Source: Siphlonurus alternatus (Eukaryota; Arthropoda; Insecta; Ephemeroptera; Siphlonuridae). Taken from it: DNA of 64,000 nt. Under the pieces are notes generated by a model that was not told the origin of the DNA, did no database searches, and worked only from the letters and a program-made list of their open reading frames with translations. The stretch covers positions 30,599,351 to 30,663,350 of the forward strand of contig OX463782.1 of NCBI GenBank assembly GCA_949825025.1. The letters run 5' to 3'. The translations under genes and the position numbers were made by a program. Of the stretch, positions 2,153 through 35,800 are shown in pieces (within the stretch, counting starts at the first letter, position 1; each line of letters begins with the position of its first letter).

Positions 2153-5100
2153 GTTGGTCCATGATCTGGTACAATATGCATACAGTATGCATAGGAGCAT
2201 GAATGCTCCTTCAGCAAAGGGTTTTTTTTCCTAGGGTTTTTTTTCAAGGGTTTTTTAATACAAGGGTTTTTTTTCCGAGGGTTTTTTTTCCGCTTACCCT
2301 CTGGATGATATGCATGCAAGCACAAGCACACTGTTTGCATAATATGCATACAGTAAACACTTTGTAGATCCAGAGAGGATCCGTACATCATACTATTACT
2401 CTCCGATCAGGGGATCCAGAAATCAAGAAGAGCCACCATAGACGCACAAGTGGTATGCATACCATGCAAAGCTACTGTATGGTATGCATATGCTCCAGCC
2501 CAGTTTAGGATTTTAGCCCTGTTTTGGTTCCGACCTGCTTTTAGGCTCCTTACTCCTTATAGGCTAAAAAAGCAATAACTGATTTACCAAACCCTCCCTT
2601 CCATGAAAATAAAAACTGCAATACCTTGATAATTTTTTTACTGGTTAAAAAAAAAAAAAAATAGAAATAAAAAACGAATAAAAACAGGGTTTTTAACAAA
2701 TAATTCGTTTTTATTTTTTCTTAACTAGTAAAAAAAATATCACGGTATTGCAGTTGTTATTTTTATGAAAAAGCTGATTTGATTAATGGGTTACAATTTT
2801 ATTTTTTAACTTTTTTTGGCTATAAGGAGTCCAAAAGCAGGCCTAGCTGGACCAAAACCGGAACATTTATTTTTCATGTAACCGGGTCCGTTACCGGGCT
2901 ATGTGGTGTACGTAATGTAATGTTATGCATATATGCACACTGTATGACACATACAGACTGCCATGCATATGATTTTATATTTTATAAAAGTATGTATGCA
3001 TTTTTATACTGTGCTGAAAGTCCATGCAATCTATTGCAATCTACTGTATCTATTGTAGATCTATTGCAATCTTTATTGTACAGAAATTGTTTTTAATCCT
3101 TCTCCATAATTGACAATTTTATAGTGTACATAGTGATTTTGTATTCTATCTTGTTGCAGGAGCAGGCGTATACAAAGACTTCAGAGCAATAAAAAATCTG
3201 AGCAAAGTGACCAAAAGAATGAGGAGCCATCAGTTAGTTTAGAACAGAGTCAATCCAGCAAAGAACCACCATTTTCAATTCCTGAACAGAATCAACTTGA
3301 CGAGAATCCTGGCAGTTCAAATTCAGAAAATCTACCACCTCAAGAACCTTCCTCAAGCTCTTGTTTAATTACAGGAAATACCTGTATCAACTCGGAGACT
3401 AATCATACCTGTATCAACTCAAAAATTAATCAGTCAGATATTTCTAGTGAACCTCCAGTTATGTGCCAAGAAATACCTTCTAATTTTTCCCCAAGCTCAG
3501 ACAATCTCCAAACCTCTAGTCAGGTAGAGAAAATTGTTAATCCAAGCTGTAGCCCTGATATGCACGAAGAATGTTCCATTGACCCGAGCAATTACGAAGT
3601 GCTTAGTCTAGAGATACCGTGTGTCGCCAGCCATATGTGTTCACCAAGCCCAGAGAGGCTTGCAGACCACCCAGCGAGCAAGGAGGAGGAACGAGAGGAC
3701 TCACCATTGTTCACTATTGATTGTGCTACAGGAAACTTCAACGACTTCTTCAGCATACAGCAGGTACAGTCAAAGTTATCTTTCTCTGTGGGATAATTTG
3801 TTAATTACTCTATGCATGTGATACAGTAATTTTAATAGTACTGTATCATATACTGTACTTCAATAGTTCTGCCTTATTTTAATTAAAAATTTTGAAGGTA
3901 GATATTATTTTAGTATGAATTTCAATTGTTGAGATGACAAATTTATAATATACTGTAGAGGTCTGCACGGGCCAAATTTTTGAGGCCCGACCCGGCCCGG
4001 TCCGTTCGGATGGTTGCTAGGCCCAGCCCGGGTCCGTGAAGACTGCTTCACAGTGCGGCCCGGCCCGTGGCCCGTTCGTAGTTCAACCTCAAATCGCCTT
4101 TTTATTTTAGTGCTTTACAACCGATTACAGTATAAAACTAAGAAAAAGTCACAAGTCATTTTAGAAGCTTTTTTTGCTTACTTGTTCCCCTTCTTCCTCT
4201 TATCCTATAGCAAAAATAACATCAACAACAAAAATCACTATTGAAATTCTGAGAAAAAGCCAGGCCCGGCCTGTTCGCAGACTGCCAATGCCTGGCCCAA
4301 GCCCAGCCCGCAGGCCGGGCGGGCCAGGCCCGGGCCCGTGCAGACCTCTAATATCCTGTATACAGTATTCATATATTGTATTCGAGAAGAGTATGAAGAG
4401 CTTACTTGAACAAACACACATGCAACACGTGATTCAGTCCATACTTGTGTCAAGACTGGATTAGATTAAAGATTTATGACAGCCATCACCAAATCTAGTG
4501 CAAAAGTCTCGGGGCGTGTGACTCAAACTTTAAACGGCACAATAGGAGCAGGTGTCTTCCCAGACGGTCATAAAGTAATGACATTCCAAGCAAAAACATT
4601 AACTAACTATTGACGTGAGAAAGGAGGTGGCGAAACTTGACAATAGACCGGATATTGATGGTTAATTAAGTATAGACCAGAGATGCAAATCTTCGCGCGA
4701 AACATGGTGCGCGAAACTTTCGCGAAACTTTCGCCCGAATATTCGCGAAACTTCGCGAAAATTTCGCGAAATTTCAAAAATGAATGTCGCAATTGTCGCA
4801 ATGCGATTTTTCATATATTCATCAAAAAATTAAGAAAACAAGATAAAATGGCCCCTTTCATGACCTGTCTATCCTCGAATGTGTTAAATGATTTTAAAAA
4901 TAATTAAAAGTAATTTTTAAAATTAATTAAAAAGAAATAAATTTTTTTATATCTACTAAATTAAATTGAATTTTTTTTTTAATTCATTTATGCAATTAAA
5001 CCTGTCATGAAAGCAAAATTAGGAAGAAAACGGCGTATTCATTAAATACGAATCGAAAAAGTAGAGCGGGAAATTCAAATATGTCAATTTCGCGAAGTTT

Positions 5101-8100
5101 CGCGCGAAACTTTCGCGAAACTTGGCTTGCGAAACTTCGCGAATATTCGCGAAACTAGCGAAATTTCGCGTGAAGCTTCGCGAAGCGTTGCATCACTGGT
5201 ATAGACCATCAATACAGGGTACCGGTATTCATTCTATTGTCTAGCTTTGCCACCTCCTTCCCTGTGGCAATAGGTTTATTAAATGTTTTTTCTTGGAGTC
5301 ATTATTTTATTATTTCATGACCGTCTGGGGAGACATCTGCTTCTTTGTGCCGTTCAAAGTTCGAGGCACACTCCCCGAGATTTTCGGCGCTGACTGTACT
5401 GTATTCATGCTCTCATTTTCAGCTGTTGTTATGTAAACATACGAAGACTCATGTTATTTGTGTTGCTTGGTTTCAGCCTGAGTGCATCGTGATTGATGAC
5501 GACGATGAAGAGGAGGTGCCAAAACCTCCCATCTCCGACCCTGAGGCCCAGCTGGACTCTCCTACCTTGGTCCCTGAGGCCAATCTAGACCCTACCATGG
5601 TCTCTGAGGCCAATCTAGACCCTACCATGGCCCCTGATGCCAATCTAGACCCTCCTACCTTAGTCCCTGAGTCCAATCTAGACCATACCATGACCCCTGA
5701 TGCTAATCTAGACCCTCCTACCTTAGTCCCTGAGTCCAATCTAGACTCTACCACCTTAGTCCCTGAGGCCAATCTAGACTCTCTCACCATGGTCTCTGAG
5801 GCCAATCTAGACCCTACCATAGTCCCTGATGCCCAGCTAGACCCCACCACCATGGTCCCTGAGGCCAAATCTGCTGTCACCTCCCCCAACCATGTGGGAA
5901 CTTCAAGCTCTTCTGAGGAGAAACTACTTGTCAGAGACTCCATACAAACATCAGTCAAGAAGCCTCTTCAACCAGATGTTCGTGCCTCCAAGATTTCTTC
6001 TGCAATTCCACCAAACACTCAGAAGGTTTGTCATAGTCCTGTAATAAATATTAGTAACTCCAAGAAGAGGGATTTAGAGTGCAGAACATAGAGTAATATA
6101 CTGTAATTGATCTTTCTAATCATTATGATGATCTATACTAATAAAGTATTAACAATAAAAGCATGTCAATGAGATTAAGGTAGGACCAACTAGAGAAAGC
6201 AAATAATGCTTATGAAGGGGATTTAAAGGGGTACCAAAGTGAATACTTTTTTTACATATTCGGGCAGCTACGAATTATTCTAATATCCCTGTGGCTCAAT
6301 ATTTACGTACGACGCCTAGTTATTTTACAATTAATTATTTAGTTTGAAAAGTGGGTTTGAAAACCGTTGGTTGGCAGCGGTCGGTGATACGACAAGAAGG
6401 GGGCGGGAGGAGGTTCCCCCGATTCACGGGAGATTCTCGTCGTATCAGCGACTGCTGCTGGAGCGCACCGACTTGAATCAATCAACGGTCATCAAACTCA
6501 CTTTTCAAACTAAATAATTAATTGTAAAGTAACTAGGCATTGTACAAAAATTTGAGCCACAGGGATATCAGAATAATTCATAGCTGCCCGAACATGTAAA
6601 AAAAGTATTCACTTTGGTACCCCTTTAAAGTACATACACACTGAAAAAAAGTACTGTACTGTAGTACTGTATTTTTAAAAATTTATTGCTGTATTACTTT
6701 TGGTCTGTCTTTTGAAATGGATTTTTTTTTTTTTTTTTTTTTTGTCTAGGCTATCATTAATATTATTTTTACCTTTCAGTATAAACCTGGTAACAAAATG
6801 TATAAAAACAAAAGGATGTTTTACAAGATTTTGGTATTGCAAATATTCAGTGTCAAAACTTGTTATTACGTAAAGTCAGGGGACTCAAAAAGTTAGATAT
6901 ACCTTATATCGAGTATTACCTTGTATCAAGTTTCTCCTATACAATGCAATGCTAATTATTTTTGACGGGATCGCAATCTCCTTTACTCAAAATCAATTTT
7001 TACCTAACAAAAAGTTGTGTAATAACGAGTTTTTACTGTACTGTATATAACAGTTAAGCATTAATCTTGAAACAAAAACTCCCATGGGTACGATTGCTAA
7101 TTGTAGTGCATGTTTTCAGGCTGAGTTTATCTTGATTGACCTGGCTGACGACGATGATGAGGAGATGGTTGAGGCAACACCTCCCCCCTGTGCACCTGAC
7201 TCAGTCGCTGAGACCAGGTCCACTCCCAGCGTGGCCGAGCAGCTCGGAACAATTGATAGTCACTCTTGGGAGCCGGCACAGAAGGAGCTTCAAGAGCTAG
7301 ACCCAAATACCTCCAAGAGCCTTCTAGATCCTGCTAGTCAACAGAGCTCTCCAAAGGTGCGTAAATTGTCTGCAGCTGTGAGCAAAGTTGACAAGTCTGT
7401 CAGTGGGGAGGTTAAGGTAATACCATTTTTTTTTATGGAAGGAGTTATAGAAAGTTTTTTGCCAGTCCTATGAAACCAGGTAGTCATCAGGAGTCAATTG
7501 AACTGGTAAAGGTTTCTATTATGACATCTTCACTAAAATAATGATGTTGAAACCACCCTTCTTCCTACTACCACTGCTTGCAAGTAATATTTCACTAATA
7601 TCTGTGTATCTCTTGCAAAAATATAATATTTTTAATTTTAGGAAATTAATTGTATGTAACTGCTAAACAGCAGTTGTTAACAATTATAAATAAACATTAT
7701 TATCATTGTATGAAGTTGGCTCTTCCCAAGGCCAAACTCAATGACAAGCTACTTTCAAAATGCTTACAAATACAACTTTATTCAATATTTGAAAATAAAA
7801 ATCAACTGCAGCTACTGTATTGATTGTGACATTATTGCTCATACTGAAACTACTTTATTAATAAACAGCGAGACACTTAAGGGCATTGGGTGTAGCACCG
7901 GTAGTTGGCAACACTGACGTATCTTCACCATGTTAATTTTTGATCATTGCTCCTCGGAGTAGTTTTTATGCTAGAGCTAAGCTGATTGCTGTAGTATTAA
8001 GATAATTAGTAGCCCAAGTGCACAATTTGGCTAAATAAAGCCTGATTTAAAGAAAAGTATTTTTTAGTGATTTTTAAAATTTACATGCATTTTTCTAAAA

Positions 8101-13411: not shown

Positions 13412-13729
13412 AGAGTATTGATCTCAATTTTTTTTATTACAGAAATGGATAAAGCGTGCAAAGTTATGCTACCCTGATTTTTTTCAGATTTTTTAGAGCC
13501 CGGGAACTATTTTTAAAAAATTATTGAAAGTTCTTTTTGTGAGGTCACGAGACGCCGCTCCTTAACAAAAAGATAGGACTTGCCGCCGCGTGACGTCACA
13601 AAAAGGACTTTCAATAATTTTTTAAAAATAGTTCCCGGGCTCAAAAAAATCTGAAAAAAATCAGGGGAGCATAACTTTGCACGCTCTATCCATTTCTGCA
13701 ATAAAAAATTTTGAGGTCAATACTCCGTT
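13412..13729. mobile_element. GACGTC MITE family, copy 1
   Basis: Foldback: TATTGACCTC-type end, ATTACAGAAATGGATA, a CTATTTTTAAAAAATTATTG block, then a GACGTCAC-bearing centre and the same blocks inverted. Ends belong to the GAGTATTGACCT subfamily. Confidence 0.85.
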
Positions 13730-14049: not shown

Positions 14050-15064
14050 CATTGCCTGAATTTTATAAACAATATAAATAAAACCTTATTTTCAGAATGA
14101 TAATGCAACTACTAGTATAATTAAATATATAATTGTTATATACCTATGTAAATAAAACTACCTATACCTACAAATAAATTTTTAAATTTATATCTGCTTA
14201 TTTTATTTTGCATTAATCTTAGCACCAAAAACATAATAGATCTTGTGTATCTTGTCAGTTCTGTTCTACAACTTCTGTTCAACATAATTGTATTGTAATT
14301 ATAGCTAGGGATCACTGCAGTAACTATACAAGACTCTGAAATTTTAATATTAAAATAGTAATATAAAAGGGATTGTCCCATCTGAAACATTACAAAAGAA
14401 AATAGTCAACAAATTAATGATCTGGGTCTAAAAAGTTTTGTAAATCTGATATGTGTTAGAAAACACTCACAAATAGTAAGTCTTCAATTCTTTCAATTAA
14501 TTATTAAAATTGTATGGTCGGAAAAGAAAAAGCAATATTCAATTTAATTGTTTTGGAATCGCTAATATGCGGCGCCAGCGAGAATTGAAACCTCAAGGAT
14601 TGCGGTGGCAATTTTATGTTATATATTATTATATTAGTCAAATTTGTCTTTTACATTTTGTCCTTAATAATTTAAATTTAAAGAAAATAGGTGTGTCTCT
14701 TAAAAACATTTTATTTTGATAATTTAAAATACATATAATTTATTAACATGCAATTTTACACGTACTAAAATTAAAATCATTATTTAGTTACTGTTATACG
14801 CATAATATAAAATGATTATTGATAGCTAGATATTAATTAATTAATAAAATAAAATAGCTTAATTCTCTAATAATTTTCAAACTTTATATAGACACAGAAA
14901 CTCAATTTTAAAATTTGTTTGATCGAATGACCTCACACGATACAGTGTGATGCAAATCAGCTGCTACCGCTCAATATTTATGAATCTCATCAACAATTTA
15001 ATTATTTTAACATCAATCACCTACCTCTATATGCAAACGTTTAAAAAAATTCCATTATAATAAT

Positions 15065-15381
15065 CGAGTACCGACCTCAAATTTTTTTATTACAGAAATG
15101 GATAGAGGGTGTAGAAATAAGCTACTCTGAATTTTTTCAGATTTTTCTGAGACCGGGAAGTATTTTTAAAAAATATTGAAAGTCCGTTTTATGACGTCAC
15201 GGGCGTTAATGTCCTATCCTTTTCTTAAGGAGAGGCGCCTCGTGACGTCATCAAAATGGACTTTCAATAATTTTTTAAAAATACTTCCCGGTCACAGAAA
15301 AATCAGAAAAAATTCAGAGTAGCATATTTTTGCACCCTCTATCCATTTCTGCAATAAAAAATTTTGAGGTCGGTACTCCAT
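15065..15381. mobile_element. GACGTC MITE family, copy 2
   Basis: Same order of blocks as copy 1, with GAGTACCGACCTCAAA and its complement as ends and two GACGTCA sites in the centre. Confidence 0.88.
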
Positions 15382-15411
15382 TTTAACTGAAGTAAAATAC
15401 ATAAATATATA

Positions 15412-16713: not shown

Positions 16714-19243
16714 TTATTCATTTAAAATGCTAACTGCATGTAAAAATCTCACCTCACATATGAAGGGATACTTAGAGTCGCATTGTTTTCCCGACAACCC
16801 CACGAGCCTCTGGTCTTTTTCGTGCCTGCCCACGGCGGCGCAACGCTCCACCTTAGAGAAGCGGTCTGGCTGTCCCTTGAGCCATGTGACGTCAGAAGAG
16901 AATGACTCGCTGTTGCCCCCACACCAAGCCCACGTGCTCCGGCAACCCAGGCCTCGTGTCCAGTACATGCTGTCCAGACGGTTTCTGCCGCTCTCTGAAC
17001 AAAATACAACATGCATCAGGTAAGAACTCTATTGTATGCAAAATTAAATAACATGAAGTTAAAAAACTTTCTACATGCATTACGTAAATATTTTTGATTT
17101 TTTTTTCCATTGAATCTTATAATATTTAATTACCTTGAAAAATTTTCTCAAAACATTTGTATTTCTCTTTGGTTTGCACGCTCAACAGACGCATTTTAAA
17201 CTCACAGCATACCTTCTGAGCCATTGTGAAGTTCAACTGAACACCCAGAAACAATTTTATTTATTTGTACACTCGTCGCCTTGGAAAATTTCCCACTTGC
17301 AGCCTTTTTAATCACCATGCCCTGTGTTCTTCTTAGGGGGAATGGTCATGATTAACAAGGCCGCAAGGAAAATTTTCCGAGGCGATAACTGATAATCATC
17401 TCTCCTGGAAGTTAGGCAACTTGTTCAACATCAAATAAAGTAAGTTAGACAAACAATGGAACAGAGATGCCATTTCAAACGATCGCAACATTATAATTAT
17501 ATTACTGGACCAACCAAGATTATTTGAAGGTAACAAATTTATCAATGTTAAATTTCAGAAAATTAGTCAATGATGCCATCGTTACAATTGTTACATATTA
17601 AAATACGCTTACAAAACTCGATAAAAAATTAGTTAATAATGCAGTTTATGTTTAAAAAAGATAATTTCTGTAGTATTTTAAAACTATAGTAGCTAAAATG
17701 AATTTTAATAAATTAATGTAAAAATTAATTACATCGATTGATAAAGAGATATCAATCATATCAATACGCTTACATCACAGTCCTCACATAATCTTTAGGA
17801 TGATATAAGATCAATGTTTTATTAGATAATTTTGGCATGAATTTAATTTGAATTCACGAGGAAGACTATATATAGAAATCAATAACTGAATAGAGTTGTT
17901 TTTATGACTTGAATGTGGCACCGATTTTGTAAATTATGAATACATGTTTACTGAAAATAGACTGAAGAAATTTGAATTAAAAAAAAAAAAAAAAAACGCT
18001 GTTCCTTCACTCTCTAGGTAATATATCTAAGCAATAAAAATAAATTACATATTAACATACGTACCGAATATGTACTAAATACATATTTTTTGGAGCAAAC
18101 TTCCCTTAATGTTGCAAGCTTGAGTGGCACTGAAAAAGTAACTTTTGTTAGAGCTATACATACGTATAATAGAAATTCTGGAAGTTTACAAAATAATTAT
18201 AAAATCATTTTACTATGGTGCCTATAGAGCATTCTAGTTTAAATAATATTTTACCATGAAAATGATCACAAATAATTTTATTCATTGTAATTGTACAGGG
18301 CATTAATTAAAGAAATGAATTATTTTTTACATAAATAAAATGTATAATAATAAAAAAAAAATCAGATTGTAGGCTATTATTCTGATTATTCCTTAATTGT
18401 TATATTTTTATAATATAAATAATATTATAATGTAATATATATATACAACAATTTTAGACTAATTAATACTAAGAAAGCAATGTTTTTCAATGGACAATTT
18501 GCATGACATTTTTTTACTGCAGAAATGGATAGAGGGTAACAAATTATGCTACTCTGAATTTTTTCAGCTTTTTTTTTTGAGAGCAGGAACTATTTTTAAA
18601 AAAAATTGTTGAAAGTCAGTTTTATGACGTCACGGGCGTTTAGCATCTATCCTTTTCTTAAGGACAGACTCCTCGTAACGTCATAAAATCGACTTTCAAT
18701 AATTTTTTAAAAATAGTGCCCGGTCTCTAAAAAACTGAAAAAATTCAGAGTGGCATAACTTTGCACCCTCTATCCATTTCTGCAATAAAAAAATGTCATG
18801 CGAATTGTCCATTACTTCTATCGTCTAGCCACTACCGAAATAAAAGATCAATAAAATTCTTTAAAATTATAAAATTAAGTAAAATAATATACTTTATAAT
18901 TATAACAATAAAAAATCAAAACGATGTATTTTCGTAATTTTTTAATCAATAAAATATAGAAAAAAGTGAAAAAACATAAATAAATGTACTAATATATATA
19001 TTTAATAATTTAAAAAAATTATTTCTGTAAATATTAGACTGCAAAATTAAATTACAATTATTGGCTACTAAATTTCATGATGGGACTTTAAACTATTTTG
19101 AAAACTATTTTTCGATTCTACAAGGCAACAACCCTCAATACATAAATGCTGGAGCAGTTGCATGAAGCACACATATAACATATTATGTATTTACACAAAA
19201 TTAACTTACTTTTTAGAGATCCATCCGGTGAGAACATGGCAGG
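16714..19243 (-). CDS. Gene A C-type lectin domain
   Basis: Exons 19243-19210 (PAMFSPDGSLK), 18129-18065 (CSKKYVFSTYS), 17236-17134 (AQKVCCEFKMRLLSV) and 16994-16714. The core exon has MYWTRGLGCRSTWAWC, WLKGQPDRF and KYPFICE. QPD is the galactose-type triplet. The partner WND motif is missing, so calcium-dependent sugar binding is doubtful. The core can read through a GTGAGA donor to TAA at 16714 (tail VRFLHAVSILNE). The other genes splice to a separate tail exon, which I could not find here: the only nearby acceptor would make a 19-nt intron. Confidence 0.75.
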
Positions 19244-22200
19244 CTACAATGGAAAATGTATTACAATTAAATGAAAGCAATTTAATTTATGTCATTATTA
19301 TCCGAATATTTTTAAATTTTAATTAATAATTTTTTACTTACAATATTATCGCATTTAATTATAGGACACGTAGGACCTGAGCAGTTTTCAAGTTTCCGTG
19401 GCGCAGCATTCTTACTTTTCTTTTTTGCGTATCTTGCTTTACCAGCTATTGTTGTTATAAGAAGAGATTTCGTCGTCAAAGGCTTTGTTGTCGTAACTAC
19501 TTTTGCATTAGTGATAGCTACTGTAGTTCTCATGGTATTTTTTTGTGTGGATTGTGCTTTTAGTGCTCTTTGATCTACCGTAGGTCTCATTGTTGTTGCC
19601 ACGACTCTTGCTGTAGTTTGCATATTCTTCATAGTCGTTATAATAGCTTGTGTTGTCAATAACTTTGTAGTAGGTTTTATCGTAGTTCCTGTAGCTCTTG
19701 CGATTGTTGCAGATAGTGTAACTTTACCTATTGTTGAAGATTTTGTAACTCTTGCAGTTGTTGCTGCTACCGTATTTTTTGCGGTTGTTGCTGCTACCGT
19801 ATTTTTTGCGGTTTTTGCCGTTGCCGTATTTTTTGCGGTTATTGCTGCTGCCGTATTTTTTGCGGTTATTGCTGCTGCCGTATTTTTTGCAGTTGTTGCT
19901 GCTGCTGTAACTTTTGCAGTTGTTGCTGCTGCTGTAACTTTTGCAGTTGTTACTGCTGCCGTAACTTTTGCAGTTGTTGCTGCTGCCGTAACTGCTGTTG
20001 TTGATGCCTTAATTTTAGCTGCTGTTGCTTTTGTTGCTGCTGTTGCTTTTGCCGTCGTAGCGGTGGTTCCTTTCGTAGTTTGAGATGTTGCTGCTGAGGA
20101 GGCTTTGGTTGGCGTTGCGACTGTTGAAGATTTGTTGTTACGTCCAGAGTGCGGAAGTCCCCCTACAGTGCTTGCTGTAACACATTTTGTTTTATGATAG
20201 TATTAGTACAAATTTAAAAACTTTACTAAATAACGTATCCTGATTTTTCTCTTGACATTTTTAATTAGGTGTGTACGAATTCGTGATCACGAAACATTAT
20301 TTTAAACGAGTATTGAATTTATAATTACATGCACCTGAATAGTATACAGTATGCAATGTATAATATATGTATATATTATTATATACATAATTGAAACCTA
20401 CACAGTGATGGAGAAAATAACAATTAATGTTTTGTTGATATTTTGAATCCTCACATTTACGAAATTTATTTAAATGAATTAAATATTTCTTCAATATTTA
20501 AATAATTTTCTTTGCATATTTTTTGGTGAATAAACTCTTGTGTATATTCGCTTACCAGTCTTATTAGCATTGCTTGAATTGCCTTTTCCCGATTCAGCCT
20601 TGACTGACACATTTGAATTTAAAAATATTTTTTTAAAAATGTCGCAATTAGATAACAATTCTTTCTTCTTTTCACACGTAGCATCTGAAACTTATAGTGG
20701 AAAACACACATGTAATGACTGCATGATATTAATAAACTATATGTTAAAGAAAATATTAGAATATTTACAGTAACACGCATGCATATATATATAGTAAAAT
20801 GTGACATATATATATAATATATGAGATTGTAAATAAATATACCTTTTTCCTTTGCTTTCTTCTCCTTTGTAACAGGACATTCCTGAAAAGGTTTTAATGA
20901 GTATAATATATTATACAATACGTGCAATTTTCTCCTACAATAAGTAACATTAATTTTTATAAAAAAAATTAAAACGTAAGATTATATATATAATACATAA
21001 TAATGTAGTATATAGAAATATCCATGTACCATAAAAATATAACACAAATAGTACGTACAGTAAAAACATAGCAGAAATAAACTTTAAACACGAATTCGTG
21101 TCAGCTAACCATAGACCATATTTATGTGCTGTTTTGATTTGGTTACAAATAAACATACGAGAACTTATAATTTTCATTAAAGAGAGATAATCATTTTTTT
21201 TAAACCTCACTCAATGTGATTAGGTGTAAGAATAGGCTTGCCTAAAACTAAGCATAAAGATATTAGATATTTTCTATTTACAGTCATTCATCAATCAGTA
21301 TAATATTTCAACTATTACTTAAAGTATATATATACAATTAAACTGTTGTCATTTTTGGTCAAGAATAATTTCTAATAAATTCGAATAGAGTTTCCAATAA
21401 TATTTATGACTATTTAACGCACCATCAGTAAACACTTGCGCACACACTGCATCAGCATTAGGGGCTGTGCTAAACACGAAGCCGCCATCTTGGTTTTACT
21501 TTGGACAGTAGGGCACAGGCCTGTAAAAAAAATAATAATAAGATAAGTAGAAGGTTGATTTTCAATATTTATTCTTCAAATTATTTTAAGTCAATTATCA
21601 ACTGTTTCAAATTAACAAAGATGTGACTGACAATCAAATCTTCTTCACAAAAAATATGGAACTTATGAACAACTAAAAGAGTATATTTTTTACTTGTATT
21701 GTTTAAAAAATTTCTAGATAATTTAAAAAAAAAAAAAATAGAAAGTGTCTCTGTTAAGAAACAATTGTTTAGCTACCTTACTAAAAAAAATTATTGTATT
21801 AACAAAAGAAAACTGTCAATAATAATTGTGTAAATTCTTATTTGTAATATGTCTAATGTCAATAATATCTTTCTCCTTTTCAGATATCTGGAAAAAAATT
21901 TAGTATGTATAGTCTCAATGTACCAAATGGTATTTATTTATTTATTTATTTAATGTGAATAAATAAATATTTAAACGTGCAGTTTAGCTTTCATATCAAA
22001 ATGTAACAAGTGTCATATTTTTTTTTGCTGGAAACGGATGTATGTACGTATATACTGTACGTTGAAACAGCTAACACAGCTTGAAAGCTAACGCTGATTT
22101 TGTTGCTTGAGTTGTTGCGTGTTTTTATTGTATTTATTGCTTTACATACATCGTGTCAATACAAAATTAGCAAAATTTTGACAAGAATTCATATTATCAG

Positions 22201-25200
22201 ATTTTAAATAAAATTTATACAAAACATGTAGATGTTTTGTGTTTCAATATAGGAAACAGAGTAAAAAAAAAAAAAAAAAAAAAACTTTTCTATGATTGCA
22301 ACCATCAGATATAAAACTCAAGGACAAATTTTTGATTCCATAATTATAAATTTTAAATAATTTTTTAAGGTCGAGTTGAATTTCACAACATCAAGATTTA
22401 TATAATATATTACTGCAAAAATCAAATTAAAATTATCTCATTAGTAAATTTTAATAATCTTCAATCGCTTCTTAGAATTCTTCGATCAGGCGCGGATCCA
22501 GGGGGGGGGGGGCTGGGGGGGCTGCAGCCCCGAAATTTTTTGGATTTAACATGGGCAATATAGGCATTTCCCCCACTCCAAATTTTTTTTAACATTGGCC
22601 TTATGGAGGCAGCCCCCCCCCCCCCCCAATTTTTTTGCTGGATCAGCGTCTGGAATTCTTCTCATGTTAACAATATGTGTGTGTTTTTCTTTTACTTGCG
22701 TGAGTTTTCATGTTTTGTCATTTATTTTAGTCATTAAAAGGAAAAAAGATGCGTCAAATTAAATGAGTTATTGACCTCAATATCCCAATGACTCAAAGTC
22801 ATTAAAAAAATGACAAGTTGAGAAGCAAGGGAAATTTTGTTTCTCTTAATATTTTTTTAGAATTTCCCGAGTGACATGATAATCTATATATTTTTTAAAT
22901 ATTGAAAGTAATGACAATGCCCCTATTAATACATTATATATAAAAAATTGATAGGAATTTGACGCCGGGGCATAGTAATTTTCTGGACTTGGAAATATCT
23001 GAAAGTAATAAGGACAAAGTAACTTTCCACTATGTTTTTATCACGTCTGAAGTATTAATTTTCAAACAAGTAGTGCAAAAAACGTATCAATTTTGAATTA
23101 CTTTTAGCAATACTTCCTGGCCACTAAAAAAATCTGAAAAAATCAGAGTATCATAATTTGGTTCTCCCTATTCATTTCTACAGTAAAAAAAATCATGCAG
23201 GTTGTCCGGTGTATAATTTATATATGATTCAACAATAGAATATTAATATTTTAAATAATGATTATTTCCTCAAGTTAATTGTATCTCTACACATACTTGC
23301 CTGCGATAGTTTTTAAGCAGCTATTCACCCCATTTTTCAACATTTCCTTCCAGTCTGTCTTCAAAGAAGCTGAGAGAAACTTGATCACTTGTTCATGATT
23401 GATTTTGTTTTCTGCGTTTAACTGCGGTGAAAATTTAGCATAATTTACTTCAATTTTGCTTATTGATGTTTGTTTATTTACTTACCAGATTTTCTTTGCG
23501 GAATATACACTCAACAAAGCTCTGAAAAAAAAATATATACATTGAAATTATTTTTAAAAATTTTCATGAGAAGTTGTATAAAATTTTGAAAATTCTTACC
23601 ATTTGTGCTGTCATGTTGCGTCCTGTTAAAATAAAATTATTATGTCATGATTATTCAAAGAAAGATATAATACATATATTTTTATTTTAAAAGTTGTGTA
23701 TTGTTTAAAACAATATATATTAATTATAATATAATAATATTATTATTCTACTCTCATGCGCGGTGTAAATGTGCAGCATAGCTATTATAATATAATTACA
23801 TCTTAATTGCATACAGGATACTAAAATTCCTCAGTACTGTTTCATGAGAACCTAGATATTATGTGCTCTGAATCAATTTTTACAATCAGCTTAATTTCAT
23901 TATCATTATCATGCACGCAATTTAAAATTCATGTAATTTAATTATTCCTTAAAAAGCTTTGATGTTGTACGTGTATATTGTAAATAAATAAGTAATATGT
24001 AATGAAAAATTTAACTGTTTTAGCTGTGTTATCTCTATTTTGTTTTCCTTGTCGTTTCATATTATAATTACTCATAATTACTAGGAATCGAGGTATAAAT
24101 TTAACTCCGAAACCTAGTAGACTTGAAATATATAGAACAGGGCCTTTTATGAGCTGTTTGAGAATTTATAATAATTTACCATGTTTTTTAAAGTGTATTC
24201 CTGATGTGAAAATGTTTACAAGAAAACAAAAGTTTTCTCATCGATAAGTGCTATTATTCAGTGTCATCATTTATGAATGAAAAGTTTTAATGTGTTGTGT
24301 TAGTGTGATATTGACGTTTCTGGAACCTCAAGAATTTGTATTATTGTATTTTAATGCATTTGATTGTAGGATATTATGGAAATAAAAAATTATTGAATTT
24401 GAATACAAATACACGATACCGTGAATTTTATGTGTGACATGTAACGGGAATTTGTGTCTTCAACTCATCTTTTAACACGTCTAAACCTAATCTTTTTACC
24501 TCTGAAACACATCTTATTTCCTCTTCTCTCAAAGTGAGGATGAAATGAAGACAATATTTCTAACATTTCATGTTCAAGAAGAGGAAAAAATACGTAATCT
24601 CTTCTTTTTCACCTCTTTTTTCCTCTAAATTGGTGCAAAATAAGAGGAGAAAAGACGAGAGGAGAGCTTAATAGCGAAGAAAAGATGAAATTTATTTCAA
24701 TTCAGGACACGTACTTCACGCTCCGTTTTAACAAATAACTTTCTACTCACGGACATTCTCCTCCATCTGTCCGAGAGTTTCGTTCTCCTTGTAATGGCGG
24801 TGCAGAATGAACTCTTGGAAGAGCACCATGTTCTCCGCGGCGGCCACGCCAGATATGTTCTTGTTACAGTGGGTCACGATACTTTTGTTCAGATTGATCT
24901 CAGGCATGTTGGAACAACACATCGCACTGCCCTGAAAAATAAACCTTATTACCATATAACTTTATGAATGTTAAAACTTGATATTTTTTTATACCCAAAA
25001 TTCCAAAAAAGGCTGCAAATTGACATTTTATGCAGTATATGTAGTGTGTTTCATTAAGTATCACATTTTTTTTTTAATTTTTACAGTGATAACCTTCACG
25101 AGCTTGAAGCTTGAGGTATATTAAAGGGTAAGGGTAAAGGAGATAAAGGATCGTGTCCATGCATGGCCTGTTATTCGTTTCAGCGAGTGAGACTGAGGGA

Positions 25201-28200
25201 ACCGTGGAAAACTTCAGTCAGAATGTACAACTTATTTTATTTTTATCAATGAACCAAAGGAACGTCTAAAGCCTGTGGAACTACAACCAGTACATTCACT
25301 GCACTGGGTGGAAAGCAAGATGAATTTACCCCAGAGATGGAGCAACGTAATTTTTACTATAACTGTTTTTTAAACTCTATACATGCACTAGCTACGAACT
25401 ACATTAACAACTGAACTTTTATCGCTGAATGCTAATTACACTTGTTACAATTGAACGTTATAATGGAACATGAAATAAACTTACAGTAAAATTGAGGTCT
25501 CGACAACGAAGACTTTCTGTTGCAGCGGGTCTCTCAGACGTTGACTTCACCTCCGTTTTATCCTTAGTGACAACATCATCAGTGGACTCAATTGTTGTCC
25601 CGCTCTCGTCAGACATACTGCAACAATAACAACAATATTCAACAAAAACTCGCTATTAAATTATCATCTTCTAGTATCACAAAAACCTTAACATAAAATA
25701 TGCTTATTCGCTATTATCTTATTATTAACGAAAAAAAGTAAAATATCATTTTATAAAATTTATTGTACCTATTTTAAATATCAATGCTATTTTTATAATC
25801 CATAATTATGTAAATACAATGCATGAATTTACTATAACAATATTATGATTAAATGCTTCAGCAACTGAAAAAAAAAATAAATAAATAATTTGCATTATTT
25901 AAATTCACTTCAATTTCTTCTACCATAGACGTATATTGCATTATGTAAAGGGCATTCACAAAGCCTTAAGGCCACATTTAAGGCTCAATAATTTAAGACC
26001 AGAAATTTTGGGTCTAAAAAACACGTCTAAAATCAAGCTTTAAATTATCGAGCCTTACATTTGGCCTTAAGACTTTGTGAATGCCCCTTAGTATGTATAT
26101 GTATACTGCATTACATATTTTTTCGGATAAAAAATAAATTAATTTTTAATCCCACCTGCTTTCCTCATCTACAACCGTATCTGATTCGTCTGAAGGATCA
26201 GCTGTCGTTTTTTTCTCTACAGATTTTGTTGTGGCGGATTTTGTAGTAGATTTCTCAGCAGGTTTAGTGCTATTTGATAGAAAATAAATTTTAAAATCAC
26301 TTAAAATATTAATAATATATTAAATATTAAATAACAAGCAGAAGTATGAAAGTGATTAATTAATTTCCTCGATCAGTTTACTTCTTAAGTAAATAAGATA
26401 CATAAAAAAATCACAAACTTTTTTTTTATTTGTGTACTAGTTGCAACAAAAATTCATAGATCACTTGGTAAAAATATGCATGTAAAACAAAATAACATGA
26501 TTAGATGTTAAAAATCATTGTATTTTTTAAAAAAAATCAAATTTAAACTGCAGTTTTATTTTGAGTGCCTTACAAATAGTAATAAAACCTTTCATTTCCA
26601 TTTTTTCGAATGCTACAAGGTAAAAAAAATGAATAAATAAAAAAAGGTTTATATAATAATTATAACAAATAATAATTTTGTGATAAATAGGTATTTACGT
26701 TTCATCTGTAACGTCTTCTTCATTGACCGATGGTTCATCTGGGTTTTCTGCTGGAGCACCATCTTCTTCTTTAGCTGCTGTGGTGGCTGTCTTGATGACA
26801 CCTTTTGAAGGAGACTTCGCCACAGTTGAAGAATTTGACTTACTGTTAGTAATTTTAGTTTCAGTGTTAGCGGTGGATTTTGTGCCATTTTTTTCTAACT
26901 TCACATCTGTTTTTCCTCCCGACTTTGCATCAGATTTTATTGAATTTTTTTCTGATTTAGAATCCGTTTTACCGTCCGATTTAGAGCTTCCAGCTGGTTT
27001 GCCTTTGTCTCCGAACTTCTCATCTTCTGTCGTTGAATTTTTATTTTTGGAAGAAGAAGAAGTCGACGGAGTTTTTCCTGCAGCTTTTGTAGTTATTTCT
27101 GGTTCTGAAAATGTGTAAAAATTAAAATTAAAAATTAATTTTAAATTAGCATATTTAAGCTTCATAGGCTTTTGTTTACTCTTAATATTTTGACTACATA
27201 TAATATTACATATATATGTTATATATATAATATTATATTACTGTATTTTGTCCATAAAAGAGATAATAAAATAAGTTATTAAATTATATTTTAAATTAAA
27301 TTCTACAAATTAAATTCTACAAATTAATACAAAAAATGTTTTATTTTATCATGCGTAATTTTTTTCTTGTTAACTTTTATGCACTGAAATATGTAAATTA
27401 AATTTAATATTAATTATAAAAATATATGTATAGCAAAAAAAGAGTAACCCACATTTATATTAATTTTATAAGAGCTATTCACAAAAAAATTATCATTGAT
27501 TTAGCCTTGAAACTTTGAGTACCAGATTTAGTACTGTAATTTTATACGAGCGCGTACTATCAATACAAATTTACATAGGCTATAATAAAATCTATGCTAA
27601 CAATTTTTTTTATATAATTTTGATACGAGCGCGTACTATCAATACAAATTTACATAGGCTATAATAAAATCTATGCTAACAATTTTTTTTATATAATTTT
27701 GATACGAGCACGTACTATCAATACAAATTTACATAGGCTATAATAAAATATATGCTAACAATTTTTGTAAATTATAATTTGTAACATTAAAAAATATACT
27801 TTTTCATTAATGCAATATTCTCCAGTGCACTTTATTAACGTAAATACATGAATATGAACCGACGATCAAGAAACAATGCAACTTATAAATCATACCAGTA
27901 TGGTCTGTAGCCTCTTCAATATCATCTGTCTCCTCATCTTGACAAACAACTAGAGTGACCTGGAAGTACAGTTTGTTTACTAGAAAATTTTACATCAGGG
28001 TATCTATTTGCTGCAACAGTTCAAAGGCCATTTTTGAGTGCGTGGGTAATAAAAGTCAAGAAAATGACTTGACTTCATGGTAACGATAGAAAAATAAACA
28101 GCAAAATAACTAACAATTTTAACTGTTGACTACAATAAATACATTGATCTTAAATTTTAAATTAATAAATAAATGTCCCTTAAAATATGCAAAAATAAAA

Positions 28201-28710
28201 ACTACGTAGAATATTGTGTATCATTTATAAGTATCATATTATAACGTTCAAAAAGTATTATATATATTATTAATATTATCATGTAGAATATACAAGACAT
28301 ATCGCAAGACACTATAAATGCAAGAAGTATGTACTAGTAATGGTAGGTTGCTAAAATGAGCTGTAATAACATATATTAATTAAATTTAACTAAAATTTTA
28401 TTGTTGATAAATGTAGAATTAATAAAGTATAAACTTTATAACGAAATTGTAAATAATATTGATTTATTTGAACATCCAATAACTAATTTCATAATAGTGG
28501 TACCTTATTAAACATTCATAATTTAAATTCCAATTTTTATGCTCATAATACAATTGCAATTTTCGATGTTGAAAAACAATAATAGATCTGACTGCTCTTA
28601 TATATATATATTGTCATAATTATTTTCTTTGAAGGTATAATAAAAATAGTTCTTACGCTGTATAAGAAGGTCCCAAAAGAAAGAAGCCACAGCAATGTGA
28701 ACTTCGTCAT
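16714..28710 (-). CDS. Gene A: secreted OBP-C-type lectin chimera
   Basis: Seventeen proposed exons (5' to 3'): 28710-28657, 27959-27896, 27104-26699, 26269-26156, 25617-25485, 24931-24751, 23622-23600, 23521-23486, 23421-23301, 21520-21423, 20882-20843, 20684-20556, 20174-19342, 19243-19210, 18129-18065, 17236-17134 and 16994-16714. Total 2715 nt, 904 aa, every junction in phase. Order: signal peptide (1-18), acidic segment, Lys/Ser/Thr linker (to about 257), Plus-C OBP-like domain (about 251-412), Lys-rich segment, Thr/Ala repeat linker (to about 744), one CTLD. The leader and acidic exons match genes B and C, and the 3' exon series matches every CTLD in the cluster, so the OBP part sits inside a lectin-family gene. 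The protein is probably secreted. Ligand is unknown. One gene is favoured over two because no leader exon or terminal exon was found between the two domains. Confidence 0.72.
18489..18813. mobile_element. GACGTC MITE family, copy 3
   Basis: Inner blocks as in copy 1, but ends are AATGGACAATTTGCATGACA and its complement, defining a second subfamily. Lies in a gene A intron. Confidence 0.88.
19342..20174 (-). CDS. Gene A Thr/Ala-rich repeat linker exon
   Basis: One 833-nt exon, open from a GTTACAG acceptor to an ATT|GTAAGT donor. The first two thirds are near-tandem repeats of a unit like T-A-A-A-T-T-A-K-V/N-T. The last part loses the repeat and ends in the three-cysteine motif C-S-G-P-T-C-P-I-I-K-C that precedes CTLDs in this cluster. 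The composition suggests an O-glycosylated mucin-like stalk. Most of the frame lacks an ATG, as expected for an internal exon. Confidence 0.75.
19770..20000 (-). repeat. 30-bp coding repeats in gene A linker
   Basis: About seven degenerate 30-bp units on the minus strand encoding ten residues each (for example AAITAKNTAA and AATTAKVTAA). Adjacent copies are almost identical at the DNA level, indicating recent tandem expansion. Confidence 0.75.
20556..20882 (-). CDS. Gene A Lys-rich exons after the OBP-like domain
   Basis: Exon 20843-20882 encodes ECPVTKEKKAKEK and supplies the C-P end of the OBP-like domain. Exon 20556-20684 encodes DATCEKKKELLSNC then a Ser/Asn/Lys-rich stretch ending NANKT. 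Two more cysteines are present. Phases 0-1 and 1-1 connect to the large Thr/Ala exon. An internal AG at 20604 could be an alternative acceptor in the same frame. Confidence 0.6.
21423..24931 (-). CDS. Gene A Plus-C odorant-binding-protein-like domain
   Basis: Five exons: 24931-24751, 23622-23600, 23521-23486, 23421-23301 and 21520-21423. Visible landmarks are AMCCSNMPEI (CC..P, residues 261-269), HCNKN, SFVECIFRKENLL, a DWKEMLKNGVNSCL helix and a C-terminal QCVRKC. The next exon starts with ECP, giving C-V-x-x-C...C-P. Doubled cysteine followed by proline, VECIF and a terminal C-P are hallmarks of insect Plus-C OBPs, small secreted hydrophobic-ligand carriers. The 23301 junction fits only a GC donor (GCAAGT): the nearby GT donor would put a stop in the next exon. 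Reading past the last donor gives a stop two codons later (LLM-VR-stop), so an OBP-only isoform is possible. Confidence 0.78.
22486..22652. mobile_element. G-tract foldback element
   Basis: Left end CAGGCGCGGATCCAG with a run of G, and right end a run of C then CTGGATCAGCGTCTG, inverted with a GCAGCCCC core. A copy of GAATTCTT lies near both borders and may be an hAT-type duplication. Gene A intron. Confidence 0.6.
23099..23210. mobile_element. GACGTC MITE family, half copy 4
   Basis: Only the right arm is clear (AATACTTCCTGGCC...AAAAAATCTGAAAAAATCAG...CATTTCTACAGTAAAAAA...GTTGTCC). The left arm is lost or too degraded. Gene A intron. Confidence 0.55.
24082..24410 (+). mobile_element. LINE 3' remnant, plus strand
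   Basis: A frame from about 24082 to 24247 reads PKPSRLEIYRTGP, then LRIYNNLP, the style of the C-terminal end of LINE reverse transcriptases. It is followed by untranslated sequence ending GGAAATAAAAAATTATTGAA. Truncated and dead. Inside a gene A intron. Confidence 0.5.
25110..25230. repeat. Dispersed repeat, copy 2 (inverted)
   Basis: Inverse of the repeat at 25-125, sharing GAGGGAACCGTGGAAAACTT. Gene A intron. Confidence 0.5.
25485..27104 (-). CDS. Gene A Lys/Ser/Thr-rich linker exons
   Basis: Three exons (26699-27104, 26156-26269, 25485-25617) encode about 217 residues dominated by Lys, Ser, Thr, Asp and Glu, with repeated KSD/KTD motifs such as SKSDGKTDSKSEKNS. This part is charged and Lys-rich, unlike the Thr-rich linkers of genes B and C. 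The last exon ends SLRCRDLNFT, whose cysteine may be the first of the OBP-like domain. Phases are 1-2, 2-2 and 2-0, the same series seen before the first CTLD in genes B and C. Confidence 0.7.
25946..26090. mobile_element. Short MITE in gene A intron
   Basis: Ends TAAAGGGCATTCACAAAGCC and CTTTGTGAATGCCCCTTA are inverted. Arms share CCTTAAGGCC/GGCCTTAAG. Confidence 0.78.
27545..27765. repeat. 79-bp tandem repeat, about 2.8 copies
   Basis: Unit begins TACGAGCGCGTACTATCAAT at 27545, 27624 and 27703. Copies differ at only a few bases. Lies in the gene A intron between the acidic exon and the Lys/Ser linker. Confidence 0.9.
27896..28710 (-). CDS. Gene A leader and acidic exons
   Basis: Exon 28657-28710 encodes a signal peptide (MTKFTLLWLLSFGTFLYS) and ends at AGC|GTAAGA. 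Exon 27896-27959 encodes VTLVVCQDEETDDIEEA and ends in phase 1. The layout (phase-0 leader exon, then a 61-64 nt acidic exon ending in phase 1) is the same as in genes B and C. Confidence 0.78.
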
Positions 28711-29046: not shown

Positions 29047-29356
29047 AAATCGAAAACAAATTACAATTTTATAGCTATAAATAGTAAATGAAGAGCTTAT
29101 ACTGTACTGTACTGTAATATACTGTACGTCAGTGACATTTTAATTCACTTAATAATTGTTGCTATTAGAAACAAATTTATGACGATCAAATTTAAAAAAA
29201 AATAATAATTAATTTATCATCTCATTAATTATTTTATTTTATTCCTAACAAATATTAGAATAAGTATTTTATTCAAACCTAAATATTATTGATTATATAA
29301 TTATATGCGTATGATTATATAATTCTTATAAACAAATTCTGCCTCGATCGTGGGAA

Positions 29357-29678
29357 TAGAGTATTGACCTAAAAATTTTTTATTGCAGATATGGATAGAG
29401 CGTGCAAAGTTATGCTACCCTGATTTTTTTTTCAGATTTTTTAGAGCCCGGGAACTATTTTTAAAAAATAATTGAAAATTATTTTTGTGACGTCACGCGG
29501 TGGCAAGTCCTATCTTTTTCTTAAGGAGCGGCGTCTCGTGACGTCACAAAAAAAACTTTCAATAATTTTTTAAAAATAGTTCCCGGATTCTAAAAAAATC
29601 TGAAAAAAATCAGGGTAGCATAAATTTGCACGCTCTATCCTTTTCTGCAATAAAAAATTTTGAGGTCGATACTCCATT
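29357..29678. mobile_element. GACGTC MITE family, copy 5
   Basis: GAGTATTGACCT subfamily, closely similar to copy 1 (GTGCAAAGTTATGCTACCC, AGCCCGGGAACTATTT, GTGACGTCAC). Confidence 0.88.
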
Positions 29679-32831: not shown

Positions 32832-35800
32832 CTGCAGCAATATCAATGCACAAAATAGGAAATAAAAACTTATCTATATAATAATTAGATTTACTTCTTG
32901 ATTATATTTATTATGTTGTAATAAGTTTTATTAGTTAAGCAAACTGTTCAAATTATTAAGGCAAAATATTTTGTTATGGTTTTATTATATAATTTAAAAC
33001 AAATCGTATTTTCACAATAATGAAAATAATTAAAAAAGTCAAAGTATAAACTTTTTATAGAAAATAACAAAATTAATAAAACAAAGATTATTCGAACATA
33101 AATTCAAAATGATACATTTTAATTAAAAAATATACCAAGATTTCTTACCTCACACAAGTATCGTTGAAAATTTATAAAGCTGTTGTCGTTGTAGCTACTT
33201 TTCTGCCCTTGAGGCCAAAATTCGACCACCAGAATGTTTTCCATTCCATTTGCATTATTTGGTTCATTTTCTCCCCAGGGATATCCTCTTGAAGATTGTG
33301 GTACTGAAGTATCACACCATTGCCACGCGTGAACGCACCCAACGTTGGTAGCCCCAGTGAAGAAATTGCCATTTGTCTTGAAATTAGCTGCTCAGAAGAG
33401 ATAAATTAGAGAACTTCTAAGGAATTTTTTCATAGATTATTCTTTTTATTGGAATTTTTTTATAAGCATCAATGACTGCGTAGTACATTCAAAAAGTACT
33501 TTAATTCCACTTTATCCTAGATTTATTATCCCTCGTTAAATTTCATACTTAAAATGGGACTAAACTGGAGGCTAAATATGCTAAAAATATGTGCTAAATC
33601 GATGCTAAAAAAATGTATATGTTCAACATTGTTTGGTACTCGATTTAACCTATGATATACAAATTAATCTAGGATAAAGTGCTTTGCTCCTCATTTATTA
33701 GAATGTATGTACTTTTTGAACTGGATGTTTGTATGACAGTGCTTGTGTGTTTTGTGTTATAGATACAAATGTAGAATCGACCTAAGAAAAATTATTGTAG
33801 AAATGGATGGTGTAAAGTTATGCTACCCTGATTTTTTTCAGATTTTTTAGAGTCCGGGAACTATTTTTAAAAAAGTATTGGAAGTACAGAAAAAGTGACG
33901 TCTCTTTAGACGCCTCTCCTAATAAAAGGATAGGGACCTAAAGGGGGCATGGGTTCAAATCCAACCTTGGCGAAACTTGTTAGCAATACTTCCCAGGCTC
34001 TAAGAAATCTGAAAAAAATAAGAGTGGCGTAACTTTGTACCCTCTATCTATTTTTGCAATTTTTTTTAGGTCGATATATACTCTATTACATGAATAAAAA
34101 CTATTTATAGTAACTATAATTAATAATTCCTACCAAAACAGTTGCTCCTGTGCGATTACACAAATAAATAATTATGAATATAAATAAATATTTTGTGAAG
34201 CTACCATGTTACAACTTATATATACTTTATTTAAATATATATAGTACCTTTGTACAGTTGATCCAGACAATCAAATTCCTCGGTTGTTTCAATGTTTACC
34301 AAATACATTCCCAGATTGCAACACGCCTTAACAGCCTCAAAGAAGTAGATCTAAAACAAAACCATCAAATTAATTAATACTTATTTTTATTTATAAGACG
34401 TCAGATAAAAAAAACTACTTATAGTATACTAACACTGGTAAGTATACTTCAGTTTTAACAGCACAGCAACACACCTTTTTTTTTCCGAATACGTATGACT
34501 TGCCACATCCTTTTAATAACACCGCAGTTGATGAGGATCCTGCAAAGATAATACAACCGAGTTGAGTAAATCAATTTCACAATACTATCGGAACCAAAAA
34601 GGTGTGCCCCTCTCCTTATGGAACTTGTATGCTCTTTAGGGGCACACCTTTTTGGTTCTGATAGTAGTCAATATAATAAGACACTTAACTAGTTAAAACA
34701 GAGAGTTCATATTTACCAAGAAAGGTTCCGTTTGAAGCAAATAATTGAGAAGTTTTCTGTGGTCAGAATATTGATTTAAATCAATTACTAATTAAATAAA
34801 TTACTAATAAGTATATAATATTATTATATTAGTAGTAAATGCACTATTATAAAATATGCTCTATTCTGTCTTTGAGGATATAAATATGGTCATATACTAT
34901 TTTCACCAACTTTCCTAATGTTTCTCTACAATCACGTCTCAACCTAATTAATACCTTGGTAGTGGTGCAGGTATTCACTTTGCACTTGGGCTTCGTACAA
35001 ATGTCCGACGCTGCAGATTCTTTGACCACCTGTAAGAGCATTTTCAGAGTTTTAATCTGATCTATTATTAATGTAATTAAAATAATATTCTATTAATCCA
35101 TTATTTTACTTGAAATATTATATTAAAAAATGGTCCCTGCATGGAAATGCTTTTTTAAGAAGTTAAGAAGCATTTTGTAAATAATATTTCCCATGAATAG
35201 GCAAGCATTTCATTTCAAGTCAATAAATTTAATTTTTTTTTATTGGTCATTTTATTTTTTTTATAGATCAACCAACTATAATTAATTAATTGGAAATAGA
35301 AATTATAGTTGTAAATTATACAATTGATGATAAATTATGAACAATGTTTTTGTAGGCTCAAGAGAAATACTCACAATAATATTTGTTTAATATAGATATC
35401 ATGATGCATGTAATTTTTTAATTTTGTTAATGGACAACCTACACGAATTTTTTTATTGCAGAAATGAATAGAGGGTACCAAATTATGCTACTCTGAATTT
35501 TTTCAAATTTATTTTTGAGACCCAGAACTATTTTTAAATAATTATTGAAAGTTCTTTAAGTTAAGTTGGCACTCCTGAATCCTTAATAAAAGGATAGGAC
35601 TAGAGACGCCTATTGACGCCTTCAGGGGGCGTGGCCGCACTTTCAATAAATATTTAAAAATAGTTCTGGCTTTCAAAAAAATCTAAAAAAATTCAGAGTA
35701 GCATAATTTGTTACCCTCTATATTCATTTCTGCAATAAAAAAATTTCATGTAGATTGTCCATTTTCAAAGATTTAAAAGAAAAAATATACATTATATAAA

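Follow-up and report, generated by a model that had tools for sequence, protein, structure and literature searches.

A candidate fusion of a Plus-C-type odorant-binding-protein domain with a C-type lectin in the mayfly Siphlonurus alternatus

Odorant-binding proteins (OBPs) are usually small free carriers whose folds carry small hydrophobic molecules, and C-type lectin domains (CTLDs) are the recognition heads of immunity and matrix proteins. OBP folds also occur in multi-domain secreted proteins, i.e., the dimer OBPs and the D7 salivary proteins, in which one OBP is paired with another. Here we describe a gene of Siphlonurus alternatus (hereafter gene A), whose predicted product likewise carries an OBP fold in a multi-domain secreted protein, the partner being in this case a lectin fold. 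The accessible part of PMC6275457 treats OBPs and CTLDs as separate families, and states that OBPs are known from insects, with no reports from mites, crustaceans or myriapods. The published Plus-C pattern of OBPs is C1-X8-41-C2-X3-C3-X39-47-C4-X17-29-C4a-X9-C5-X8-C6-P-X9-11-C6a (accessible parts of PMC4605488 and PMC11652525), with a variant that includes C6b (PMC5623005, likewise in part). Among the literature matches listed, in which subscription journals are thinly covered, no publication pairs an OBP with a CTLD in one protein, in line with an earlier reading of the locus from the sequence only (the sequence-only reading), which knew of no described example.

A probable OBP fusion in a lectin-cluster gene

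Gene A lies in a stretch of 64,000 nucleotides (C5:30599351-30663350; hereafter the window), free of Ns, within a genome of 455.7 Mb in 102 contigs. Its 17 exons run on the minus strand from 28710 to 16714 of the window (Table 1) and splice in phase into 2715 nt, i.e., 904 codons plus a stop, with no internal stop in the spliced frame. All of them were recovered where the sequence-only reading had placed them. Donors are GT in 15 of 16 cases and GC in one (exon 9), and all 16 acceptors are AG. The protein would comprise, in this order, a leader, an acidic and Lys/Ser-rich stalk (exons 2–5), an OBP domain at about residues 246–446, a linker of 280 residues (26% Thr and 23% Ala), a Cys motif and a CTLD at residues 745–891. 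Its six most hydrophobic 19-residue stretches start at residues 3–8, and from this leader the product is predicted to be secreted.

We consider that gene A is probably a true fusion gene, with a Plus-C-type OBP domain lying in frame inside a gene of a lectin cluster, and a coding fusion is well supported at the DNA level. Firstly, both Pfam profiles match one in-phase protein, PBP_GOBP with 24.6 bits for the whole protein and 28.1 for the domain (cut-off 22) and Lectin_C with 23.2 and 28.3 bits (cut-off 22.6); none of nine shuffles of gene A with every Cys fixed matched PBP_GOBP. Secondly, the OBP block matches independent OBP genes of the same genome exon by exon. Thirdly, the exons of the lectin block are laid out as in the CTLD units nearby (with phases imposed in the scans). 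The fusion proposed by the sequence-only reading gains support on these three counts, and it is also favoured because separate-gene readings need unseen parts: no leader-like start, as sought for an independent OBP, was found between exons 5 and 6.

The domain takes up exons 6–12 entirely together with the end of exon 5, and has both C6a and C6b in exon 12; five Plus-C OBP-like exons had been claimed before, so that the domain stands and its exon count rises to seven, plus the exon 5 end. From C3 to C6-Pro (Cys 330, 372, 393, 403 and 412, and Pro413) the spacing is C3-x41-C4-x20-C4a-x9-C5-x8-C6-Pro, as in the Plus-C pattern, and C6b is present. This core together with C6a and C6b (the C6a range widened to 13) was found in none of 200000 shuffles, and the core alone in 25 of 200000. 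A profile made from gene A and two stand-alone OBP genes described below (P and Q) reached 3PM2 (AGAP007287) in the PDB at E 7.5e-6, while gene A alone reached just 8bxu at 0.033 and not 3PM2. We take 3PM2 to be a Plus-C OBP, and AGAP007287 to be AgamOBP47. All three of these sequences matched OBP47_like, and two of the three PBP_GOBP (E 0.1 or better).

Stand-alone relatives were found on other contigs. Searching the genome with the OBP domain of gene A gave seven matches, five of them in gene A, one in the gene that we call P (C2:14.09 Mb) and one on C3 (E 0.76), which was judged to be due to chance as there was nothing further in 10 kb. Gene P consists of 10 exons coding for 246 amino acids, with its own leader and a stop three residues past C6b, scores 24.9 bits with PBP_GOBP, and shows C2-x3-C3 and the Plus-C core, with a C1-C2 spacing (44) beyond the published range. 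Its exons 3–10 correspond to exons 5–12 of gene A, the end of gene A exon 5 aligning with that of P exon 3; the phases are equal at all borders inside the block and the exons of 23, 36 and 121 nt have the same length in both. Their alignment scores 185, against 65 for the best of 3000 Cys-fixed shuffles. With P as query we obtained 11 matches, seven of them P itself, and others led to genes Q (C7) and R and S (both C4); C7:12278284 (E 1.39) is a further match. The OBP loci found in this way are a minimum, since the search with P missed gene A itself, and further fusions are possible. In Q, modelled from the exon with the CC motif onwards, the exons measure 175, 23, 36, 118, 101 and 31 nt, compared to 181, 23, 36, 121, 98 and 40 in gene A, and the lengths of gene A exons 6–11 agree modulo 3 with P and with Q in six of six cases each. 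Q ends with a Thr/Ser-rich, mucin-like tail and a stop (C7:26493750-26493973), and R and S (partial, read by eye) stop 11 and 7 residues past C6b. The 36-nt exon carries Cys C2 in all four relatives where it was found (P, Q, R and one more locus, T), and a scan did not find it in S; C2 was therefore most likely lost in gene A, where a Ser stands in its place. An extra Cys407 (CVRKC, 21432-21434, minus strand), which lies four residues past C5 and is not shared by P, Q or R, may stand in for the partner that disappeared along with C2.

CTLD queries gave nothing convincing in 30 kb near P, nor in one 20-kb stretch on each of C7 and C4 (best E 0.34), and a weak match to the lectin Cys motif near P (E 0.004) was dropped, having no CTLD beside it. 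The PF01395 profile run over the whole genome matched nothing, controls included, and is uninformative, the OBP exons being short.

Table 1. Exons of gene A, with positions in the window, and what each of them encodes
Feature	Position	Strand	Content and phase
Exon 1	28657..28710	-	Start codon and hydrophobic leader MTKFTLLWLLSFGTFLYS; ends in phase 0
Exon 2	27896..27959	-	End of leader and acidic stretch; phase 0>1, phases as in lectins B and C and OBP gene P
Exon 3	26699..27104	-	Low-complexity, Lys/Ser/Thr-rich; phase 1>2, as lectin C exon 3
Exon 4	26156..26269	-	Lys/Thr-rich, acidic end; phase 2>2, as lectin C exon 4
Exon 5	25485..25617	-	Acidic; 3' end RCRDLNFT with first OBP Cys; phase 2>0
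Exon 6	24751..24931	-	OBP with CC motif; 181 nt; phase 0>1
Exon 7	23600..23622	-	OBP; 23 nt (same in P and Q); phase 1>0
Exon 8	23486..23521	-	OBP; 36 nt; SFVECIFRKENL; Ser at the place of Cys C2 in P, Q, R and T
Exon 9	23301..23421	-	OBP C4; GC donor; phase 0>1
Exon 10	21423..21520	-	OBP C4a and C5; extra Cys407; phase 1>0
Exon 11	20843..20882	-	OBP C6-Pro; phase 0>1
Exon 12	20556..20684	-	OBP C6a and C6b, then donor; P, R and S stop near there; phase 1>1
Exon 13	19342..20174	-	Mucin-like Thr/Ala-rich linker (27-nt repeats) and lectin-cluster Cys motif NCSGPTCPIIKC; phase 1>0
Exon 13, second acceptor	20170, 4 nt inside	-	Phase 2
Exon 14	19210..19243	-	PAMFSPDGSLK; 34 nt; phase 0>1
Exon 15	18065..18129	-	Start of CTLD unit; 65 nt; phase 1>0
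Exon 16	17134..17236	-	CTLD; 103 nt; phase 0>1
Exon 17	16714..16994	-	End of CTLD; QPD present, WND Asp absent; stop; alternative donor after 16753

Some other features of the surroundings can be mentioned here. Fold-back repeats resembling miniature inverted-repeat transposable elements, with arms of 71–142 nt, lie at 13413-13725, 15062-15382, 18489-18813, 29355-29678 and 33803-34047 of the window, the third of them inside intron 14 of gene A, and stretches of similar appearance were seen by eye near gene Q. A GC-richer stretch contains open frames on the plus strand at 3137-3793, 5321-6088 and 7051-7470, one of them with acidic EANLDPTM-type repeats; none of the three had a Pfam match at E 0.1.

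The lectin part and its neighbours

That gene A ends with the CTLD exon series of its neighbours, as had been proposed, is borne out by the exon lengths, the phases having been imposed in the scans. Nine CTLD units were scanned in the window, all on the minus strand. The best candidate for an exon like exon 16 measures 103 nt in all nine (phase 0>1 and 70–150 nt imposed), and that for exon 17 ends one residue past the last Cys in six of nine, gene A among them. With the phases of gene A imposed, exons like exon 14 (34–40 nt) and like exon 15 (59–68 nt) were each found in seven of eight units; the exon 15 candidate of the C1 unit (74 nt) was dropped, not being CTLD-like. The donor after 16753 in exon 17 stands at the same place as the best-scoring donor of five of the eight other units, and the last 12 codons of gene A are uncertain because exon 17 carries it. 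A profile of the cluster CTLDs, made from eight units (U63 left out, and C1 represented by its other exons but not exon 15), finds 133 different sequences in the PDB, the best being the mosquito mosGCTL-1 (9t9z). The neighbouring cluster extends over 33149-63134 of the window (minus strand), with several genes that seemingly have more than one CTLD unit and a rigid exon layout, and further lectin units lie 32–40 kb past the window end.

The CTLD of gene A keeps QPD and has LSGKQC at the WND place, where six of eight aligned units have D. According to the accessible part of PMC6275457, EPN or QPD together with WND is the rule for calcium-dependent sugar binding, with exceptions. Since QPD is kept and the WND Asp is missing, classical calcium-dependent sugar binding by this domain seems doubtful, and a protein-type or non-canonical binding would be more likely.

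Upstream of their CTLDs, lectin C has the exon phases 0, 0>1, 1>2, 2>2, 2>2 and 2>0 before its first unit, and in lectin B we found 0>1, 1>2, 2>2 and 2>0 and no leader exon. Gene A has the phases of lectin C in exons 1–4 (0, 0>1, 1>2, 2>2), exons 3 and 4 included. The sequence-only reading had taken the leader and acidic exons to be the same as those of B and C; the phases agree with C, and the similarity in sequence is not significant. The leader did no better against lectin C than 723 of 5000 shuffles, and exon 2 gave 261/5000 against B and 2681/5000 against C, a weak test given that exon 2 of B against that of C gives 354/5000; exon 5 likewise showed no significant homology to the lectin exons in a shuffle test. 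The case for leader homology to lectins B and C is therefore one of intron phases and not of sequence. Exon 13 joins a Thr-rich stretch and a Cys motif that are separate exons in B and C, and its Cys-motif end was equalled by 0/5000 shuffles against lectin B and 224/5000 against C. Thr-rich stretches occur in both partners, namely in lectins B, C and D and in the OBPs Q and R.

Weighing the fusion against other readings

Several observations, set out in this paragraph and the next, weigh against the fusion. The gene model was derived solely from genomic DNA. With a codon test trained on 23 exons of the lectin cluster, including exons 16 and 17 of gene A, 16 of the 17 exons are positive in frame, exon 12 with just +1.2 bits, and exon 15 is negative (-6.9); the true frame ranks first of the three in 13 of 17 exons, the others being 1, 10, 13 and 15, and in exons 10 and 13 it is outscored by another frame. 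The full published Plus-C pattern is absent because C2 is Ser326, leaving no C2-x3-C3, and C6a (Cys427) follows Pro413 after 13 residues instead of 9–11; besides, the 46 residues between Cys279 and Ser326 exceed the C1-C2 range of 8–41. OBP47_like matches gene A alone at E 0.004, no better than the best shuffle (0.0037), and one of the three sequences in the alignment with P and Q has no PBP_GOBP match. Searches of a protein database with the OBP region and with the lectin region, both restricted to long proteins, and with the OBP alone found no relative in another species, a result that says little about other species because neither domain found any relative, the database being probably poor in insects. 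As to the N-terminal part, the phases of exons 1 and 2 agree equally well with OBP gene P and with lectin C, and R has an apparent Thr-rich, mucin-like N-terminal exon of its own, of about 280 codons, before the exon with the CC motif (C4, about 39353150-39352300, minus strand, by eye), so that exons 1–5 might come from the OBP side. The Thr-rich start of exon 13 resembles the Thr-rich exons of the lectins weakly (141/5000 shuffles for B, 1028/5000 for C).

At the junction, exon 13 has the lowest-scoring of all 16 acceptors (1.6, with splice sites scored by our own matrix), and reading through exon 12 closes the frame at 487 amino acids, with an AATAAA nearby at 20470, making an OBP-only transcript possible. 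These features, together with the N-terminal exon of R, would suit two separate genes, i.e., an OBP gene with a Lys/Ser-rich stalk (exons 1–12 and the read-through) that ends in intron 12, and another lectin transcript formed by exons 13–17 with its leader unseen or lost; a hydrophobic start at 21069 (minus strand) could feed exon 12 or 13 in phase, via a weak donor. We hold this to be unlikely. P, R and S stop 3, 11 and 7 residues past C6b, and Q after its Thr/Ser tail, whereas gene A has there a donor scoring 10.3, followed by an exon 13 open over 833 nt in the very phase that exon 12 supplies. Exons 3 and 4 have the phases of lectin C, and leader-like starts between 30400 and 16700 come close to the background count on the opposite strand (10 on the minus strand, counting that of gene A, versus 7 on the plus strand). 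AATAAA or ATTAAA occurs 50 times in 28.7–16.0 kb.

The same junction has a tandem acceptor. Exons 5–12 sum to 761 nt, a shift of two bases for which entry into exon 13 at 20174 (phase 1) compensates. The acceptor at 20170 has phase 2, as the Thr-rich exon 5 of lectins B and C, and skipping exons 5–12 through it gives a plain lectin of 649 amino acids in frame; so does skipping exons 3–12 through 20174 (477 amino acids). The locus could then produce mainly a plain lectin, with the OBP exons as a minor or relic cassette. Such mixed output seems quite improbable to us, given that a relic would soon lose an open frame with positive codon scores such as that of the OBP exons, that the acceptor at 20170 (AAG) follows one with CAG after 4 nt, and that 43 of the 120 contiguous exon skips of gene A keep the frame, which makes the frame-keeping skips weak evidence.

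Least probable of all, and hardly credible, is that gene A is not functional and represents a decayed or misassembled locus. The losses of C2 and of the WND Asp would agree with decay, but 904 codons are open, with 15 GT donors and one GC donor, 16 AG acceptors and no Ns, and the OBP exons sit between leader and CTLD exons over 12 kb.

Proposed origin and function, and comparison with described proteins

A fusion gene, the reading that we prefer, could have arisen when the exons of a mature OBP domain entered a lectin gene beside its Thr-rich exon. The signal-peptide exon of the OBP gene would have been lost together with its stop codon, and exon 12 would have gained a donor feeding exon 13 in phase; recombination through the Thr-rich stretches common to both partners is one possible route. 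The predicted product is a single secreted protein with a Lys/Ser-rich N-terminal stalk, the OBP, a long Thr/Ala-rich linker and one CTLD. The leader would direct its secretion. A small hydrophobic molecule would sit in the OBP pocket while the CTLD attaches to a glycan or protein surface, and the OBP cargo would in this way be kept at surfaces of mucus, cuticle, gut or microbes instead of diffusing freely. Our tentative picture is that of a carrier on a stalk, which its CTLD would keep at a surface.

A bolder version remains tentative, and we lean against it: gene A may be an expressed and fixed chimera and the first OBP-CTLD protein, a mucin-stalked, two-headed receptor in which the CTLD would select the surfaces and the OBP pocket would present or trap a hydrophobic molecule there, the 4-nt tandem acceptor switching between fusion and plain lectin. 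More generally, a gene joining the two domains would be a new domain architecture that connects carriers of the odorant type with the recognition of surfaces, and non-olfactory roles of OBPs, which are under debate, could be tested in one molecule. Having stand-alone relatives of both partners, with matching exon layouts, in one genome makes the steps of the fusion readable.

Compared to Plus-C OBPs (3PM2 and, in the accessible part of PMC4605488, those of Apolygus lucorum), gene A shares the PBP/GOBP profile, the spacing from C3 to C6-Pro and the presence of C6a and C6b. It differs in its Ser at C2, the longer distance to C6a, the extra Cys407 and the lack of a stop past C6b, and its OBP belongs to a much longer protein with a CTLD. 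The exon layout of this domain is, on the other hand, that of the stand-alone paralogues of the same genome. With the insect C-type lectins gene A has in common the CTLD, the hydrophobic leader, a Thr-rich stretch and the exon layout of its neighbours, from which it differs in the inserted OBP domain and the missing WND Asp, as well as in its single CTLD unit, lectins B and C seeming to have three and two, respectively.

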